64,000 bases of DNA, taken from Frigoribacterium sp. PhB160 (lineage in GTDB: Bacteria > Actinomycetota > Actinomycetes > Actinomycetales > Microbacteriaceae). Both the position numbers and the translations under genes were made by a program. The number at the start of each line of letters is the position of its first letter. Positions within the stretch are counted from its first letter, which is position 1. This document shows, piece after piece, positions 19,508-26,662 of the stretch. The notes beneath the pieces were generated by a model. It made no database searches. It was not told where the DNA came from and was given only the letters and a program-made list of their open reading frames with translations. The DNA lies in contig NZ_RKIE01000001.1 of the NCBI RefSeq assembly GCF_003751785.1, positions 1,713,564-1,777,563 on the forward strand. Reading direction: 5' to 3'.

Positions 19508-20980
19508 TCAGGCGAAGAGCGCCTCGATCGGCCCGCGGACGAAGAACACGACGAAGCCGGCGGCGACGATCCAGAGCAGCGGGCTGATGCCGCGGGCCCG
19601 GCCCGAGAACGCGCGGACGAGCACCCAGCTCACGAAGCCGACGCCGATGCCGTTCGCGATCGAGTAGGTCAGCGGCATGACGACGATCGTGAGGAAGACC
19701 GGCAGGGCGACGCTGAAGTCGGTCCAGTCGATGTCCTTGATCTGCGACACCATGAGCGCGCCGACGATGACGAGCGCGGCCGCCGCCACCTCGAGCGGCA
19801 CCACCTGGGTCAGCGGCGTGAAGAACATCGCGAGGATGAACAGCACGCCCGTCACGACCGACGCGAAGCCGGTGCGGGCGCCCTCGCCGATGCCCGAGGC
19901 CGACTCGACGAAGACGGTGTTCGACGACGAGCTCGTCGCGCCGCCCGCGACCGCGCCGACGCCCTCGATGATGAGCGCGCTGCGCAGGCGCGGGAAGGTG
20001 CCCTTCTCGTCGGCGACGTCGGCCGCCTTCGCGAGCCCGGTCATCGTGCCCATGGCGTCGAAGAAGTTCGTGAACACGAGCGTGAAGACGAGCATGACGC
20101 CCGACAGCCAGCCGATGCGCGCGAAGGCCCCGAAGCTCACGTCGCCGACGAGCGACAGGTCGGGCAGGGCCACGATCTGGGTCGGCACGACGGGCGCGTT
20201 GAGGTTCCAGTCGTCCAGGTTCTGGCCGTTCGAGGTCGGCACCTGGAAGATCGCCTGCAGCACGATGGCGACGACGGTCGTGGCGACGATGCCGATGAAG
20301 ATCGCGCCGCGCACCCGGCGGGCCATGAGCACCCCGATGACCACGAGGCCGATGACGAACGTGATGGTCGGCAGGGTCGCGATCGATCCCTCGCTGCCGA
20401 GCTGCACGGGCGGCGACGCGAGGCCGCTGGTGCGGACGAAGCCGGAGTCGACGAGGCCGATGAACGCGATGAACAGGCCGATGCCCACGGTGATGGCCGT
20501 CTTGAGCGCCGCCGGGACGGCGTTGAAGATCAGGCCGCGGAGGCCCGTCACGGCGAGGATCGTGATGATCAGCCCGTTGATCACGACGAGGCCCATCGCC
20601 TCGGGCCAGGTGACGTCCTGCACGACGTTCACCGCGAGGAACGAGTTGATGCCGAGCCCGGCCGCGAAGGCGAACGGGAGGCGCGCGACGGCCCCGAAGA
20701 GGATCGTCATGACGCCTGCGGTGAGGGCGGTGACCGCGCCCACCTGGCTGTTCTGCAGCCAGCCGCCCACGACGTCGGTCGCCGCCTGGTCGGCGCTGAA
20801 CCCGCCGAGGATCAGCGGGTTGAGGATGACGATGTAAGCCATGGTCACGAAGGTGACGATGCCGCCGCGGGCCTCGCGGGCCCAGCTCGAGCCGCGGGCC
20901 GTGATCTCGAAGTAGCGGTCGAGCGTGCCGACGGTGCCGGGTCGCGGCGTGCGGGTGCCCGAGGGCGCGGTGGACGACAT
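19508..20980 (-). CDS. NCS2-family permease (AzgA-like purine/oxo-compound transporter)
   Basis: A 490-residue transporter with 12-14 transmembrane segments. Features of the AzgA branch of NCS2 are RGGIVTFVTMAYIVILNP near the N-terminus, AAGLGINSFLAVNVV near residue 97 and TNFFDAMGTMTGLA near residue 290. AzgA proteins import adenine, guanine and hypoxanthine by proton symport. Its location is notable: it lies 61 nt after the last 5-oxoprolinase-cluster gene on the same strand, so its substrate may be 5-oxoproline or a related lactam. ATG start with CGGAG upstream; the longer frame is spurious. Confidence 0.88.
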   Translation of the reverse strand: MSSTAPSGTRTPRPGTVGTLDRYFEITARGSSWAREARGGIVTFVTMAYIVILNPLILGGFSADQAATDVVGGWLQNSQVGAVTALTAGVMTILFGAVARLPFAFAAGLGINSFLAVNVVQDVTWPEAMGLVVINGLIITILAVTGLRGLIFNAVPAALKTAITVGIGLFIAFIGLVDSGFVRTSGLASPPVQLGSEGSIATLPTITFVIGLVVIGVLMARRVRGAIFIGIVATTVVAIVLQAIFQVPTSNGQNLDDWNLNAPVVPTQIVALPDLSLVGDVSFGAFARIGWLSGVMLVFTLVFTNFFDAMGTMTGLAKAADVADEKGTFPRLRSALIIEGVGAVAGGATSSSSNTVFVESASGIGEGARTGFASVVTGVLFILAMFFTPLTQVVPLEVAAAALVIVGALMVSQIKDIDWTDFSVALPVFLTIVVMPLTYSIANGIGVGFVSWVLVRAFSGRARGISPLLWIVAAGFVVFFVRGPIEALFA

Positions 20981-21041: not shown

Positions 21042-22577
21042 TTACGGTGCCGTCCGGCCCCCGTCGGTCTCGACGACCGCGGCGACGAGAGCCGCCACGA
21101 CGTCGGTGTCGGCGAGGGCGGCGGGCAGCCCGAGCGGCACGCGGCGACCGGCCACCTCGACGACGGTGCGGAGCGTCGCGGGGCCGACCCGCGCCTCCGG
21201 CGTGCGGTGGGCGAGGGCCTCGAGCCAGTGGCACTCCTGCTCGATCCACCTGGTGTGCAGGGCGTAGGGCTCGTCGCCGGGTGCGGCGAAGGCCGGCTCG
21301 TCGAGCAGGTGCCGGTGGAAGGGCACGGTCGTGACCGGGCCCTCGAGCACGAGGTCGTGGAGCGCCCGACGGGCACGGCGGAGTGCCTCGTCACGGTCGC
21401 GGCCCTGCACCACGAGGGTGAGCAGCAGCGGGTCGCGGCCCGGGGGCAGCTCGTCGCCCGTCGCGCAGCCCTCGTCGACGCGGACGCCCGGGCCGCCGGG
21501 CAGGCGGAGCGACGCCACCGGGGCGAGGGCGGGCAGGAAGCCGCGGCCGGCGTCCTCCGCCGTGACCCGGAAGGAGACCGCGTGGCCGACGGGCGTCGGG
21601 GTCTCGAGCACCTCGGTGGGCAGGCCCTGCGCGACGAGCAGCTGCTGGCGCACGAGGTCGACGCCGGCGACCTGCTCGGTGAGGGCGTGCTCGACGGAGA
21701 GCGCCGTGCCGACCTCGAGGAAGGACACGACGCCGGCCTGCGACACGAGGAACTCGACCGTGCCCGCGCCGCGGTAGCGGACGGACGAGCAGAGCGCGAC
21801 GCTGACGTCGGTCACGACGGCGAGCTGCTCGTCGTCGAGGAAGGGCGCCGGCGCCTCCGCGACGAGCTTCTGGTGCCGGCGCTGCGTCGAGCAGTCGCGC
21901 GTGCCGACGACGACGACGCCGCCCTCGCCGTCGCCGAGCACCTGGGCCTCGACGTGCCGCGGGCGGTCGAGGTACTGCTCGACGAAGACCTCGCCGCGGC
22001 CGAAGACGGACGCCGACTCGCGCACGGCCGAGTCGAGCAGGTCGGCGACCTCGTCGAGGCGCCTCGCGACCCGCAGCCCCTGGCCGCCGCCGCCGTGCGC
22101 CGCCTTGAGCGCGACCGGCAGGCCGTGGCGCTGGGCGAACGCGACGGCCTCGTCGGCCCGCCGGATCGCCCGGGAGGTGCCGACGACGAGCGGCGCCCCG
22201 ACCTCCTCGGCGAGGGCCCTCGCGGAGACCTTGTCGCCCAGCAGCTCCATCGTCTCGGGGTCGGGACCGACCCAGGTGAGGCCGGCGGCGACGACCCGAC
22301 GCGCGAACTCCGCGTTCTCGGAGAGCGGGCCGCAGCCGGGGTGCACCGCGTCGGCGCCGCTGCGCTCGGCGACGTCGAGCAGGGCCTGCATGTCGCGGTA
22401 CCCGTCGAGGTCGCCCGGCACGCTCGGCAGCGCGAAGGCCTCGTCGGCGGCCGCGACGTGGAGGGAGCCCGCGTCGTCGTCGGCGTGGACGGCGATCGAG
22501 CGGACGCCGAGGTCGGCGCAGGCCCGGGCGATGCGGACGGCGACCACGCCGCGCTCCGCGATGAGCAGGGCCCTCAC
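21042..22577 (-). CDS. Biotin carboxylase-like ATP-grasp protein with altered active site, in the pxp operon
   Basis: A 511-residue protein that aligns along the biotin carboxylase fold: the N-terminal domain (1-115), an ATP-grasp domain with a Gly-rich loop HGGGGQG near residue 161, RRHQK at 233-237, and a C-terminal domain. The metal/bicarbonate loop, EMNTRIQVEH in E. coli AccC residues 288-297, reads EVGTALSVEH at the same numbering. Asn290, Arg292 and Gln294 are therefore Gly, Ala and Ser, while Glu288 and Glu296 remain. No biotin-carrier domain or AMKM motif is present, and none is nearby. The GTG start overlaps pxpBC by GTGA. It may be a repurposed ATP-grasp subunit of the 5-oxoprolinase system. 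Confidence 0.8.
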   Translation of the reverse strand: MRALLIAERGVVAVRIARACADLGVRSIAVHADDDAGSLHVAAADEAFALPSVPGDLDGYRDMQALLDVAERSGADAVHPGCGPLSENAEFARRVVAAGLTWVGPDPETMELLGDKVSARALAEEVGAPLVVGTSRAIRRADEAVAFAQRHGLPVALKAAHGGGGQGLRVARRLDEVADLLDSAVRESASVFGRGEVFVEQYLDRPRHVEAQVLGDGEGGVVVVGTRDCSTQRRHQKLVAEAPAPFLDDEQLAVVTDVSVALCSSVRYRGAGTVEFLVSQAGVVSFLEVGTALSVEHALTEQVAGVDLVRQQLLVAQGLPTEVLETPTPVGHAVSFRVTAEDAGRGFLPALAPVASLRLPGGPGVRVDEGCATGDELPPGRDPLLLTLVVQGRDRDEALRRARRALHDLVLEGPVTTVPFHRHLLDEPAFAAPGDEPYALHTRWIEQECHWLEALAHRTPEARVGPATLRTVVEVAGRRVPLGLPAALADTDVVAALVAAVVETDGGRTAP

Positions 22578-24412
22578 TGCTCGACCCCGCGCTCCGCGGC
22601 GAGCCGCTCGTCGAGGTGTGCGTCGCGTCGACCGCCGCGTCGACCCGCGCCGAGCTCGGGACCGGGCACGACGCGGAACCGCACCTGCGCCCCGACCGGC
22701 ACCTGCGCCGCCCGGTCGAGCTGGTCGCCGACGACGCAGGCCACGACCGGGTAGCCGCCCGTCACCGGGTGGTCGGCCATGAAGAGCACCGGCTGGCCCG
22801 ACGGGGGCACCTGCAGGGCGCCCGAGACGGTGGCCTCGCTCGGCAGCTCGCCCTCGACGGCGCGGTCGAGCGGCACGTCGCCCTCGAGCCGGAGGCCGAT
22901 GCGGTTCGACTGGCCCGTGACCGTCCACCGCTGCGTGGTGAGCCGCTCGACCGCCGCGGGGGTGAACCAGTCGTCGCGCGGCCCGAGCACGACGTCGAGG
23001 AAGGTCACCTCGTCGGGCGCGGACACCGACGGCTGGGCGTCGGGAGCGGCGGCGGCGACGCTCTCGGACCAGGCATGCCCCACGCCGAGCTCGTCGCCCG
23101 CCCGCAGGCGCTCCGGCCCGAGATGGGCGAGCACGTCGCCCGACGCGCTGTCGAGCACGGGCTCGACGTCCCAGCCGCCGCGGACGGCGAGGTACGAGTA
23201 CACGCCCCGGGGAGGCGCGCCGACGGTGAGCACGTCGCCGTCGTCGAGCGCGAAGGCCGCCCCGATCGCCGCGGTGCGCGGGCCGCTCGCCCCGTCGATC
23301 GTGATCGGCACGGGCGCACCGGAGACCGCGAGGACGAGGTCGCCCCGGGCCGCCGCACGCAGGCCGCCGTAGGCCATCTCGAGCGCGGCCGAGCCGGTGG
23401 CGGCGCCGACGAGGCGGTTCGCCTCGCGGAGGGCGCGGTGGTCCATCGCCCCGGAGCGCGAGACGCCGAGGCCGGAGCGGCCGGGCCGCCCGAGGTCCTC
23501 GAGGATCGAGTGGGGGCCGGGCGCGGCGACCACGAGGGCGCGCTCGGGGCGCGGGGCGGCGTCGCCGGGGGCGGCCGGCGTGGCGGTCGCCGTCGCGGTC
23601 CCGTCACCCGCCTCGGGCGTCGCCGTCGACTCCGTCAGGGCCTCGACGAAGCGGACGCGCATGCCGGGCTGCAGCAGGGCGGGCACGCGCTCGGCCAGGT
23701 CCCACAGGGGCACGTCGGTGCGGCCGACGATCTGCCATCCCCCCGGGCTCTCACGCGGGTAGACGCCGGAGAACTCGCCGGCCAGGGCGACCGCTCCGGC
23801 GGGGACGTGGGTGCGCGGGGTCGACCGGCGCGGCACCGCCAGGTCGGGGTCGCCGCCCGAGAGGTAGGCGAAGCCCGGGGCGAAGCCGGTGAACGCCACC
23901 GTGTACGTCGCCGCGGTGTGCCGGTCGACGACCTCGTCGGGCGAGAGGCCGCTGAGGCGCGCCACCTCGTCGAGGTCGACGCCGTCGTAGTGCACGGGGA
24001 TCTCGACGAGCCGGCCCTCGGTCGCCGCGTCGCGCGAGTTCGGGAGCGACCGCACGACGCTCATGAGGGACGCCACGGGCAGCAGGGCGGGCAGGAAGCG
24101 CACCGCCACGGTGCGCGGCGCGGGCACGACGTCGAGGATGCCCGCGACCGGCTGCGCGAGGAGGGCGCCGAAGAGCGCGAGCGACTCGTCGAGGCCCTCG
24201 GTCTCGATGAGGATGCCGTCGGTGCCGAGCGGGAGGACGCGCGAGCCCGCGACCGCCGCGCCGAGGTCGACGGGCTCGGAGTGGACGGGCCGGTCGTCGG
24301 GGGCACCGCCGGGTCCGCGGTCAGGGTCGTGGCCATGCTCGGGCTCGTGCTCGCTGACGTCGCCCTCCGTGGCGGCCTCGACGAGTTCGTGGTCGCGGTC
24401 GGGATCGCTCAC
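22574..24412 (-). CDS. pxpBC: Fused 5-oxoprolinase subunits PxpB-PxpC (KipI-KipA)
   Basis: A 612-residue fusion. Residues about 45-265 form the PxpB/KipI part, with VPVHYDGVDLDEVARLSGL-like sequence and TVAFTGFAPGFAYLSG. A low-complexity Ala/Thr/Pro linker follows. Residues about 300-590 form the PxpC/KipA part, with SILEDLGRPGRSGLGVSRSG near its start and PSGQPVLFMADHPVTGGYP near its end. With PxpA these subunits hydrolyse 5-oxoproline to glutamate using ATP. In many bacteria they are separate genes. The same fold forms the carboxyltransferase part of urea carboxylase. The first 45 residues are acidic and His-rich. GTG start overlaps pxpA by GTGA. Confidence 0.9.
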   Translation of the reverse strand: MSDPDRDHELVEAATEGDVSEHEPEHGHDPDRGPGGAPDDRPVHSEPVDLGAAVAGSRVLPLGTDGILIETEGLDESLALFGALLAQPVAGILDVVPAPRTVAVRFLPALLPVASLMSVVRSLPNSRDAATEGRLVEIPVHYDGVDLDEVARLSGLSPDEVVDRHTAATYTVAFTGFAPGFAYLSGGDPDLAVPRRSTPRTHVPAGAVALAGEFSGVYPRESPGGWQIVGRTDVPLWDLAERVPALLQPGMRVRFVEALTESTATPEAGDGTATATATPAAPGDAAPRPERALVVAAPGPHSILEDLGRPGRSGLGVSRSGAMDHRALREANRLVGAATGSAALEMAYGGLRAAARGDLVLAVSGAPVPITIDGASGPRTAAIGAAFALDDGDVLTVGAPPRGVYSYLAVRGGWDVEPVLDSASGDVLAHLGPERLRAGDELGVGHAWSESVAAAAPDAQPSVSAPDEVTFLDVVLGPRDDWFTPAAVERLTTQRWTVTGQSNRIGLRLEGDVPLDRAVEGELPSEATVSGALQVPPSGQPVLFMADHPVTGGYPVVACVVGDQLDRAAQVPVGAQVRFRVVPGPELGAGRRGGRRDAHLDERLAAERGVEQ

Positions 24413-25200
24413 GAGGTCACCGCCGGGCGGGGCACGAACGAGCGCACGGCGACGCCGGCGCCCTCGAGCCCGTCGCGGACGGCCCGGGCGATCGCGACGG
24501 CGCCCGGGGTGTCGCCGTGGACGCACACCGACCCGGCGTCGAGCTCGACCTCGGTGCCGTCGACGGCCGTCACGCGGCCCGTCTCGACGAGGGCGAGCAC
24601 GCGGTCGCGGATCTCGGCCGGGTCGTGCAGCACCGCACCGGGCTCACGGCGCGGGACCAGCTCGCCCGAGGCGGTGTAGCCGCGGTCGGCGAAGGCCTCG
24701 GCGACGGTGGCGAGCCCCGCCTCGGCGGCACGGCGGAGGAACGCCGACCCGGCGAGCCCGACGACGACGAGCGAGGCGTCGGAGCGGACGACCGCCTCGA
24801 CGACCGCGGCGACGTGGGCCCGGCCGCGCTCGTCGTCGCGGGCGATGGTGTTGTAGAGCGCGCCGTGCGGCTTGACGTAGCGGACCGTGCCCCCGACGGC
24901 CCGGGCCAGGCCGGTCAGGGCACCGACCTGGTAGACGACGTCGCCGACCAGCTCGGGGCCGGAGGCGTCGACGTAGCGCCGCCCGAAGCCGACGAGGTCG
25001 CGGTAGGCGACGTGCGCCCCGACGACGACGCCGCGACGGTGGGCGGCGTCGACGACGCGCAGCAGCGACTCGGGGTCGCCGGCGTGGAACCCGCACGCGA
25101 CGTTGGCGCTCGTGACGACGTCGAGCATGGCGTCGTCGTCGCCGAGCGCCCACCGGCCGAAGCCCTCGCCGAGGTCGGCGTTGAGGTCGATGGTCGTCAT
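24409..25200 (-). CDS. pxpA: 5-oxoprolinase subunit PxpA (LamB/YcsF family)
   Basis: A 263-residue protein of the LamB/YcsF family. It has the diagnostic start IDLNADLGEGFGRW, SANVACGFHAGDP near residue 35, KPHGALYN near residue 110 and VCVHGDTPGAV near residue 225. PxpA works with PxpB and PxpC to open the 5-oxoproline ring with ATP, recycling a damage product of glutamine and glutamate. It is the first of four tightly packed minus-strand genes (pxpA, pxpBC, biotin-carboxylase-like, permease). The ATG overlaps nothing upstream; a DoxX-like gene ends 91 nt before it. Confidence 0.93.
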   Translation of the reverse strand: MTTIDLNADLGEGFGRWALGDDDAMLDVVTSANVACGFHAGDPESLLRVVDAAHRRGVVVGAHVAYRDLVGFGRRYVDASGPELVGDVVYQVGALTGLARAVGGTVRYVKPHGALYNTIARDDERGRAHVAAVVEAVVRSDASLVVVGLAGSAFLRRAAEAGLATVAEAFADRGYTASGELVPRREPGAVLHDPAEIRDRVLALVETGRVTAVDGTEVELDAGSVCVHGDTPGAVAIARAVRDGLEGAGVAVRSFVPRPAVTS

Positions 25201-25291: not shown

Positions 25292-25714
25292 TCAGGAGGC
25301 GCGGCGGATGGCGAGCGAACGGGTCACGAGCGGCCACTGCAGCGGCAGGCGGGCCACGGCGACGACGGTGCGGACGCGGGAGGCGCGGGCGCTGCGGACC
25401 GACCGCCACGCCATCGAGACGTTCGCCGGGAACACGGCGACGAAGAGGGCCGCCGCGAGGGCCCCGCCCTGCCGCCGCGTCGTGCGCGAGGCGAGGGCGC
25501 CCGCGACGACCAGCTCGGCGACGCCGGAGGCGAGGGTCCAGGCGCGGGCCGGGCCGGGCAGGGAGCGAGGCACGATCGAGTCGAACGGGGCGGGCCGCAC
25601 GAGGTGCAGCACCCCGCTCGTGCCGAGCAGGACGGCGAGCCCGCGGGCGGTGGACGCGGCGGCGGCCGGGCCGACGGGGGCGGGGCGGGTGTCTCGGGGG
25701 CTCATGCGGTCCAT
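25292..25714 (-). CDS. DoxX-like small membrane protein
   Basis: A 140-residue protein with about four hydrophobic segments and the DoxX-like phrases LLGTSGVLHLVRP, GVAELVVAGAL and FPANVSMAW. Related proteins are annotated as DoxX or MauE-like membrane proteins of unknown function. Two ATG codons are possible, three codons apart (25714 and 25705); a GAGGAGG lies 14 nt before the first. It sits between lysR and pxpA on the same strand, so it may belong to the pxp transcription unit, but a link to 5-oxoproline is only positional. Confidence 0.75.
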   Translation of the reverse strand: MDRMSPRDTRPAPVGPAAAASTARGLAVLLGTSGVLHLVRPAPFDSIVPRSLPGPARAWTLASGVAELVVAGALASRTTRRQGGALAAALFVAVFPANVSMAWRSVRSARASRVRTVVAVARLPLQWPLVTRSLAIRRAS

Positions 25715-25765: not shown

Positions 25766-26662
25766 TCAGACCATGCGGCTGACGCCGCGGCTCATGATGG
25801 CCGAGGTGAGCGCGTCGACCGGCTCGCGGGGCGCCGCCGGGTTGGCCACGAGCACGTAGTCGACGTCGCCGAGGTCGGGCAGCTCGAAGCGCGTGCTGAC
25901 CTTGACGAGGTCGGTCGGGATGAGCGAGAACGGGAAGACGGCGACGCCCATGCCGGCCCGCACGGCCGCCAGCACGCCGTTCACGTCGCGCGTGTTGCAG
26001 GTGATGCGCCAGGTGCGGCCCGCGGCCTCGAGGGCGTCGATGGCCAGCTGGCGGCTGATGCTCGGCGCCTGGTAGACGATGAGCGGGACGGGGCCGTCGC
26101 GCTCGACGACGAGCTTCTCCTGCCCGATCCAGACCATGGCGTCGCCGGCGACGCGGGTGCCCCCGGCCGCCTCGCCCGCGGTCTGCTTGACGAAGATGAG
26201 GTCGAGGTGGCCGCTGGCCAGGCGACGGCGGAGCGGTGCGCTCTGGTTGACCGTGAGCTCGAGGTCGATCTGCGGGTAGAGCTGGCGGAAGTGCCGCAGG
26301 ATGCGCGGCAGCTGCGTGATGGCGAGGTCGTCGGCGGCGCCGAACCGGAGGCGCCCGCGCATGGCCGAGCCGCTGAAGTAGCTCTCGGCGGCGGCGTGGG
26401 CGGCGAGGATCGTGCGGGCGAACCCCGCCATCGCGTCGCCGGCGTCGGTCAGCCGCACCTCGCGCGTGTCGCGCGTGACGAGCAGTCGGCCGACGGACTT
26501 CTCGAGGCGGCCGACGTGCTGGCTCACCGTGGGCTGGCTGATGCCGAGGCGGAGGCCGGCGCCGGTGAAGCTGCGGGTCTCGGCGACCGCGAGGAACGTC
26601 GTCAGCAGGGCGGGGTCGTACACGGCGAGCGCCTCCTCCACGGTGTCGGTCGGGCTGCTCAT
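25766..26662 (-). CDS. LysR family transcriptional regulator
   Basis: A 298-residue regulator. The winged helix-turn-helix is at about residues 16-75 (LLTTFLAVAETRSFTGAGLRLGISQPTVSQHVGRLE). The effector-binding domain is at about 100-290 and includes RLRFGAADDLAITQLPRILRHF. LysR proteins often control adjacent genes: here either the divergent MFS exporter or the downstream DoxX-pxp genes on its own strand. TTCGAT lies 6 nt before the ATG, and a perfect 14-bp palindrome lies in the shared intergenic region. The effector is unknown. Confidence 0.92.
   Translation of the reverse strand: MSSPTDTVEEALAVYDPALLTTFLAVAETRSFTGAGLRLGISQPTVSQHVGRLEKSVGRLLVTRDTREVRLTDAGDAMAGFARTILAAHAAAESYFSGSAMRGRLRFGAADDLAITQLPRILRHFRQLYPQIDLELTVNQSAPLRRRLASGHLDLIFVKQTAGEAAGGTRVAGDAMVWIGQEKLVVERDGPVPLIVYQAPSISRQLAIDALEAAGRTWRITCNTRDVNGVLAAVRAGMGVAVFPFSLIPTDLVKVSTRFELPDLGDVDYVLVANPAAPREPVDALTSAIMSRGVSRMV

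Follow-up and report, generated by a model that had tools for sequence, protein, structure and literature searches.

The 5-oxoprolinase PxpABC is present in E. coli and B. subtilis. Homologues of pxpA and pxpB/pxpC are common to these systems, to that of C. glutamicum and to the locus described here. For pxpTABC of C. glutamicum, it is assumed that PxpB and PxpC carry out the phosphorylation of 5-oxoproline; the word "carboxylase" occurs 0 times in the main text of that account, and the parts of it considered here name no biotin carboxylase (BC)-like subunit (PMC13274462). A search of the open-licence literature yielded no paper on a BC-like subunit of PxpABC or on a BC in pxp operons, and no explanation for a BC accompanying pxp genes. 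For inactive biotin carboxylases, no paper on the subject was found among titles and the beginnings of abstracts, and the genus Frigoribacterium in combination with 5-oxoproline gave nothing relevant.

The analyzed window, a stretch of 64,000 nucleotides from Frigoribacterium sp. PhB160, contains on its minus strand a gene (21042..22577; GTG start, 511 aa) which similarity-based annotation would probably call a BC subunit. It is almost certainly not a working one and is referred to as the pseudo-biotin-carboxylase (pseudo-BC) gene in the following. Upstream of it, on the same strand, a fused pxpBC gene (22574..24412; PxpB and PxpC with the Pfam domains CT_C_D and CT_A_B; start inferred from the overlap) and pxpA (24409..25200; LamB/YcsF family, 5-oxoprolinase subunit A) are located. 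The Pfam domains of pxpA, pxpB and pxpC are all clear. PxpB scored 144.3 bits, just below the NCBIfam cut-off of 145.55, and PxpC 171.6 bits, far below the PxpC equivalog cut-off of 500. The three genes are chained by 4-nt GTGA overlaps: the GTG of pseudo-BC overlaps the pxpBC stop codon at 22577-22574, exactly as the first-pass annotation had read it, and the pxpBC start overlaps the pxpA stop codon in the same way at 24412-24409. A small MauE-like gene (25292..25714, minus strand) lies 5′ of pxpA, and a LysR-type regulator gene, the candidate regulator, is found at 25766..26662 (minus strand). The next gene 3′ of pseudo-BC codes for a xanthine/uracil family permease (19508..20980, minus strand; start set at the ATG at 20980 by inference), a candidate uptake partner.

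Among 16 Frigoribacterium genomes, PxpC and the carrier-less BC share the same 9, and both are missing in the other 7. The gene order MauE-like gene, pxpA, pxpBC, pseudo-BC and permease, the 4-nt overlap between pseudo-BC and pxpBC and the open frame of pseudo-BC were conserved in all nine, and the LysR gene was matched in 7 of the 9 operon stretches. Overlap, gene order and co-occurrence thus uphold the assignment of the gene to the pxp operon. A sequencing error or frameshift is ruled out, as the nine genomes agree.

Over its whole length (21042..22577), pseudo-BC consists of the N-terminal, ATP-grasp and C-terminal domains of a BC (Pfam Biotin_carb_N, CPSase_L_D2 and Biotin_carb_C) and the pre-carrier region of AccA3, as found by Pfam, the match to AccA3 and an AlphaFold model. 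It stays under every listed NCBIfam carboxylase cut-off (accC, 415.7 bits compared to 626.5). Among solved structures, its sequence is closest to mycobacterial alpha chains of the AccA3 type, with an alignment that covers residues 3-490. In carrier-bearing relatives the carrier domain comes after this region; here, linker and carrier domain are replaced by a C-terminal tail of codons 490-511 and the stop codon (21042..21110, minus strand). The AlphaFold model, built from 27 sequences, reached a pLDDT of 88.6 and a pTM of 0.85, and its top structural matches were mycobacterial AccA3/LCC alpha chains with 50-53% identity. A helix is modelled at 492-503 with low confidence, and the pLDDT is below 50 at 498-511. 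No carrier domain was matched in pseudo-BC by Pfam, and none was found in the operon by Pfam and a genome search for Biotin_lipoyl, two results which agree with the earlier statement that protein and operon lack one. The genome search gave three Biotin_lipoyl domains: the lysine motif is of the lipoyl type in two, and the sole AMKM biotin motif among the three is that of the housekeeping AccBC.

Residues are numbered after E. coli AccC of MG1655, with K238 and R338 corresponding to K237 and R337 here. The catalytic loop (residues 288-297; 21687..21716, minus strand) was found to be EVGTALSVEH by residue alignment, with the substitutions N290G, R292A and Q294S. Further changes are Y82C, F84P, R167Q and K202Q, and N9, E241, E336 and K387 are altered as well. 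K116, K159, E201, H209, K238, E276, E288, E296 and R338 are unchanged. Both the loop replacements and the retention of E288, E296, the RHQK lysine and Arg337 had been noted from the letters alone and are reproduced by the alignment. R167 and K202 are nucleotide-adjacent in E. coli BC, and N290 is a metal ligand within the E-x-N motif of ATP-grasp enzymes. This motif is broken in Frigoribacterium, where E288 is kept and N290 is G in all nine copies. In E. coli BC, N290A and R292A lower the activity 250- and 200-fold, respectively, according to the part of a docking study considered here (PMC8667948). With N290, R292, Q294 and Y82 replaced and the carrier absent, the view that pseudo-BC is not an ordinary biotin carboxylase holds.

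The loop follows the pattern FLE[VF]GTAL[SPA][VL]EH in all nine Frigoribacterium copies. G290 and A292 are present and Q294 and Y82 are lost in every one of them, whereas N290, R292, Q294 and Y82 were identified in all 73 canonical rows, which comprise 25 housekeeping AccBC (16 of them from Frigoribacterium) and 48 pxp-linked AccBC. The loop change is therefore not a matter of chance. K116, K159, E201, H209, E276, E288, E296 and R338 are retained in all nine, and R167 and K202 are changed in all nine, K202 being variable in canonical pxp-linked rows too. E. coli and the 73 canonical rows share 103 invariant sites. The Frigoribacterium copies keep 76 of these throughout; 13 are changed in all copies and 14, including K238, vary within the genus. 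When canonical-invariant positions were assigned to two sets from what is generally known of the enzyme, all 12 ATP-contact positions were kept in the nine copies, whereas 6 of the 10 bicarbonate/biotin positions were changed or mixed among them (Fisher p 0.033 and 0.019, for sites that are non-independent). In one copy (L070, genome G218), the RHQK lysine K238, residue 237 there, is replaced by E; it is kept in the other eight.

The median dN/dS of pseudo-BC was found to be 0.34 (36 pairs), with 0.07-0.19 for four close pairs. With 36 pairs each, the medians were 0.36 for pxpA, 0.225 for pxpBC, 0.208 for the permease and 0.107 for the housekeeping AccBC; the LysR gene gave 0.142 (21 pairs from 7 genomes). 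Purifying selection on pseudo-BC is thus about as strong as on pxpA and weaker than on pxpBC, the permease, the LysR gene and the housekeeping AccBC. A BC fold that is retained, catalytic residues that are gone and purifying selection that still acts characterize pseudo-BC as a probable pseudoenzyme. Our favored reading, to which we assign a rough probability of 0.58, is that it serves as a non-carboxylating structural or nucleotide-sensing partner of a 5-oxoprolinase of the fused-PxpBC type.

For the comparison with other genera, pxpC was surveyed and identified in 226 of 398 genomes, of which the best rows were followed; long-frame, urea-carboxylase-like rows, judged by frame length, were left out. 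The 118 family regions taken (L108-L225) correspond to 117 pxpC loci of other Microbacteriaceae, since L218 repeats L145. A full-length AccBC was located directly 3′ of pxpC in 48 of the 117 loci. Forty-seven of these adjoin a fused pxpBC; the remaining one (L132) lies where a contig begins and was counted as split. The remaining loci comprise 2 with a carrier-less copy, 59 without a BC match and 8 with a BC elsewhere in the stretch, where absence means none within the fetched stretch by tblastn and HMM (L199 being in the HMM training set). Seven of the latter 8 have a low-identity pxpBC. Loci with a low-identity pxpBC, eight in total, were treated separately; in seven of them the BC is on the far side. 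Outside the genus, 26 of 75 fused pxpBC genes have no BC directly downstream, which counts against the reading of BC as a subunit; in 25 of the 26 the fetched stretch contains no BC, and in L162 there is one 1.7 kb away. Among loci with split pxpB/pxpC, 33 of 34 are without AccBC, the carrier-bearing AccBC going with the fused form. From these family loci, which are non-independent, it looks as if fusion of pxpBC and biotin go together.

All 48 pxp-linked AccBC keep N290, R292, Q294, V295, Y82 and K238 as well as a carrier with a biotin motif. In L182 the biotin site is AMKT, which was overlooked by the motif search and recognised by reading the sequence, and L196, whose loop is NARIQ, still has N, R and Q. 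In a family scan, NTRLQVEH and the biotin motif are present in every one of the 22 best loci from other genera, and 12 of them adjoin PxpBC; three candidates were scored in most genomes, so that diverged copies may be hidden. When two peptide patterns were searched against 84,980 species, 33 loci matched: the 7 from Frigoribacterium have the variant, and N, R and Q occur at the three positions in each of the other 26. The first-pass annotation had asked whether the loop change is conserved in AccC-like proteins next to pxp genes. It is conserved within the genus, in nine out of nine copies, and not between genera, where the 48 AccBC keep NTR-Q. Operon relatives that retain NTR-Q, which the annotation would have read as the mark of a single decayed copy, thus occur in the other genera and not within Frigoribacterium.

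The residue aligned with H236 of E. coli is N, S or G in all 48 pxp-linked AccBC. All 25 housekeeping AccBC and all 9 Frigoribacterium pseudo-BCs have H there.

Outside the family, 20 pxpC loci were covered. L227, from another family of the same order, combines a fused pxpBC with an intact AccBC. Three more (L243, L244 and L246) have a separate AccC with an intact loop near low-identity PxpB/PxpC. Within the family, L247-L249, three of the eight low-identity pxpBC loci for which longer stretches were taken, have a separate AccC with the canonical loop. Low-identity PxpB/PxpC with a separate AccC, as in L243, L244 and L246-L249, is apparently a different layout. L243 and L246 also encode a small carrier protein near the low-identity PxpB/PxpC.

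Pseudo-BC might also be a weak BC acting in trans, charging the carrier of the housekeeping AccBC and thereby supplying PxpBC with carboxybiotin. E288, E296 and R338 are kept in nine copies and K238 in eight, a biotin motif is present elsewhere in the genome, and PxpBC has Pfam carboxyltransferase domains shared with urea carboxylase, all of which would suit such a role. Yet N290, R292, Q294 and Y82 are jointly lost in all nine copies, K238 is lost in one, and pseudo-BC has no carrier, whereas its 48 canonical relatives retain theirs in cis. We regard this possibility as highly improbable.

Two more carrier-less BC copies adjoin a fused pxpBC, in one genome each. The copy of L145 (= L218) is 503 aa long when counted from a GTG that overlaps the pxpBC stop codon as GTGA. 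Its loop sequence is FRGVRPNLVPGH, it shows the changes K116P, K159R, E288G and E296G, and part of its glycine loop is missing. The copy of L199 has 498 aa and an ATG overlapping the pxpBC stop codon by 4 nt; Pfam finds its N and C domains and no ATP-grasp domain. Both are more heavily decayed than the Frigoribacterium copies. A 4-nt overlap with pxpBC occurs in all carrier-less lineages, compared to 6 of 48 canonical AccBC, for which starts were set by alignment and the pxpBC stop codon was not reached in 3 rows.

These copies bear on the main rival of our reading, a decaying remnant, in which an ancestral AccBC lost carrier and active site, is functionless and is being lost. The heavy decay of L145 and L199 points in this direction, as do the frequent absence of a BC beside fused pxpBC and a constraint below that of all other tested genes except pxpA. 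The replacement of K238 by E in L070 and the 14 variable canonical-invariant sites also fit slow decay. Against this stand the nine open frames, the nine overlaps, the ATP-contact set, unchanged in all nine copies, and a dN/dS well under 1 and near the pxpA value. A mere remnant is thus considered unlikely.

They bear equally on the suggestion of the first-pass annotation that pseudo-BC is a repurposed ATP-grasp catalyst for lactam opening. In this view, the rewritten loop would serve another acceptor; pseudo-BC might, for instance, phosphorylate 5-oxoproline for PxpA, and ATP would then be consumed by pseudo-BC instead of PxpBC. The ATP-contact set is kept at 12 of 12 positions, and G-T-A-L is invariant in the nine copies, as expected of a new active site. 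Catalytic repurposing is nevertheless disfavored because N290 and R292 are lost and because neither L145, which lost its ATP site, nor L199, with no detectable ATP-grasp domain, has one. In addition, an intact AccBC is found in 48 and no BC match in 59 of the 117 family loci, the latter within the fetched stretch, and the C. glutamicum account, as far as considered here, assumes phosphorylation by PxpB and PxpC and has no BC subunit (PMC13274462). A catalyst of this kind appears improbable. The Frigoribacterium protein is the only carrier-less BC that keeps the nucleotide pocket and could therefore differ from the L145 and L199 proteins.

The origin of the carrier-less copies was analyzed with two trees. 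The BC tree contained 66 of 88 rows; L199, E. coli, L196, L081, L082 and 17 housekeeping rows were left out. Eight housekeeping rows formed one clade (100/100), and forcing Frigoribacterium together with the housekeeping rows and L086, a group chosen after the first tree and tested on data that included the long L145 branch, cost 32.8 log units (AU p 0.0154). A recent duplication of the own housekeeping AccBC is rejected on this AU value and the separate housekeeping clade. The BC tree groups Frigoribacterium with L145 with a support of 34/89, where long branches meet. In the PxpBC tree (90 rows), whose intended outgroup did not fall on one side of a branch, Frigoribacterium forms one clade (100/100) with weakly supported nearest neighbours. 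This clade lies inside a 59-row clade (98/96) along with L199, which is placed within a clade of four canonical rows (100/99); L145 falls outside the 59-row clade. As the three lineages do not group together in the PxpBC tree, three separate losses are the plain reading. A single origin of the pseudo-BCs is disfavored on the same tree; the BC tree does not decide between the two, and a transfer of the operon is possible.

The full-length pxp-linked AccBC is presumably the ancestral form. Because an intact AccBC occupies the same position in 48 of the 117 loci, its recruitment to the operon most likely preceded the loss of the active site, and probably the loss of both carrier and active site. 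In our favored reading of pseudo-BC as a non-carboxylating partner, the starting point, by comparison, would be an alpha chain of the AccA3 type that has a carrier of its own and lies directly 3′ of fused pxpBC, as seen in many Microbacteriaceae. The Frigoribacterium line would then have lost the carrier and rewritten the biotin/bicarbonate pocket (Y82, N290, R292 and Q294) with the 12 nucleotide contacts kept, an order of events set by parsimony. The resulting gene overlaps pxpBC and is under purifying selection. Its product may bind PxpBC, perhaps because the ancestor did, and may stabilise or regulate it, possibly binding ATP or ADP without turnover. Operon place and overlap are circumstantial support for such a contact. 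Weighing against this reading are a constraint below that on every other tested gene except pxpA and the replacement of R167 and K202 in all nine copies. That pseudo-BC carboxylates biotin is very unlikely, and that it runs another ATP-grasp reaction is unlikely.

A more far-reaching reading, which we consider speculative and somewhat doubtful, is that fused PxpBC with a cis-biotinylated AccBC forms a biotin-dependent lactam opener, and that at least three lineages reverted to a biotin-free mode in which the dead BC is kept structurally. By analogy, carboxybiotin might activate the ring as urea carboxylase does with urea, a similarly tentative idea, and with the same reserve the Frigoribacterium subunit might be nucleotide-gated. 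In that case, a former enzyme of the complex would have turned into its scaffold. Beside fused pxpBC, a series can be arranged from intact AccBC over Frigoribacterium (ATP site, no carrier) and L145 (ATP site lost) to L199 (no ATP-grasp domain), which constitutes a natural experiment on the contribution of a non-carboxylating BC to 5-oxoprolinase. It raises the question why a BC accompanies pxp genes in 48 of 117 family loci and several other actinobacterial loci.

Compared to known systems, pseudo-BC shares the BC fold of the AccA3-type acyl-CoA carboxylase alpha chain (PDB 5mlk, 9yx2 and 30hu), with a match over residues 3-490. It differs from AccA3 in the absence of the carrier, the rewritten bicarbonate and biotin pocket and its location with pxpA and pxpBC. 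The pxp-linked AccBC (L108, L118 and L219, and L227 from another family) take the same operon position and show 51-57% identity to pseudo-BC among those compared, but have N290, R292, Q294 and Y82 intact in 48 of 48 cases and a carrier with a biotin motif. Pseudo-BC and PxpBC each match parts of the urea carboxylase/urea amidolyase model TIGR02712; here, in contrast, the genes are separate, the carrier is absent and the BC loop is without N, R and Q. The BADC proteins of plant acetyl-CoA carboxylase are non-biotinylated carrier paralogues and act as negative regulators. Pseudo-BC resembles them in the idea of a dead carboxylase subunit retained to regulate a complex, whereas BADC is a carrier paralogue, not a BC paralogue, and belongs to another complex.
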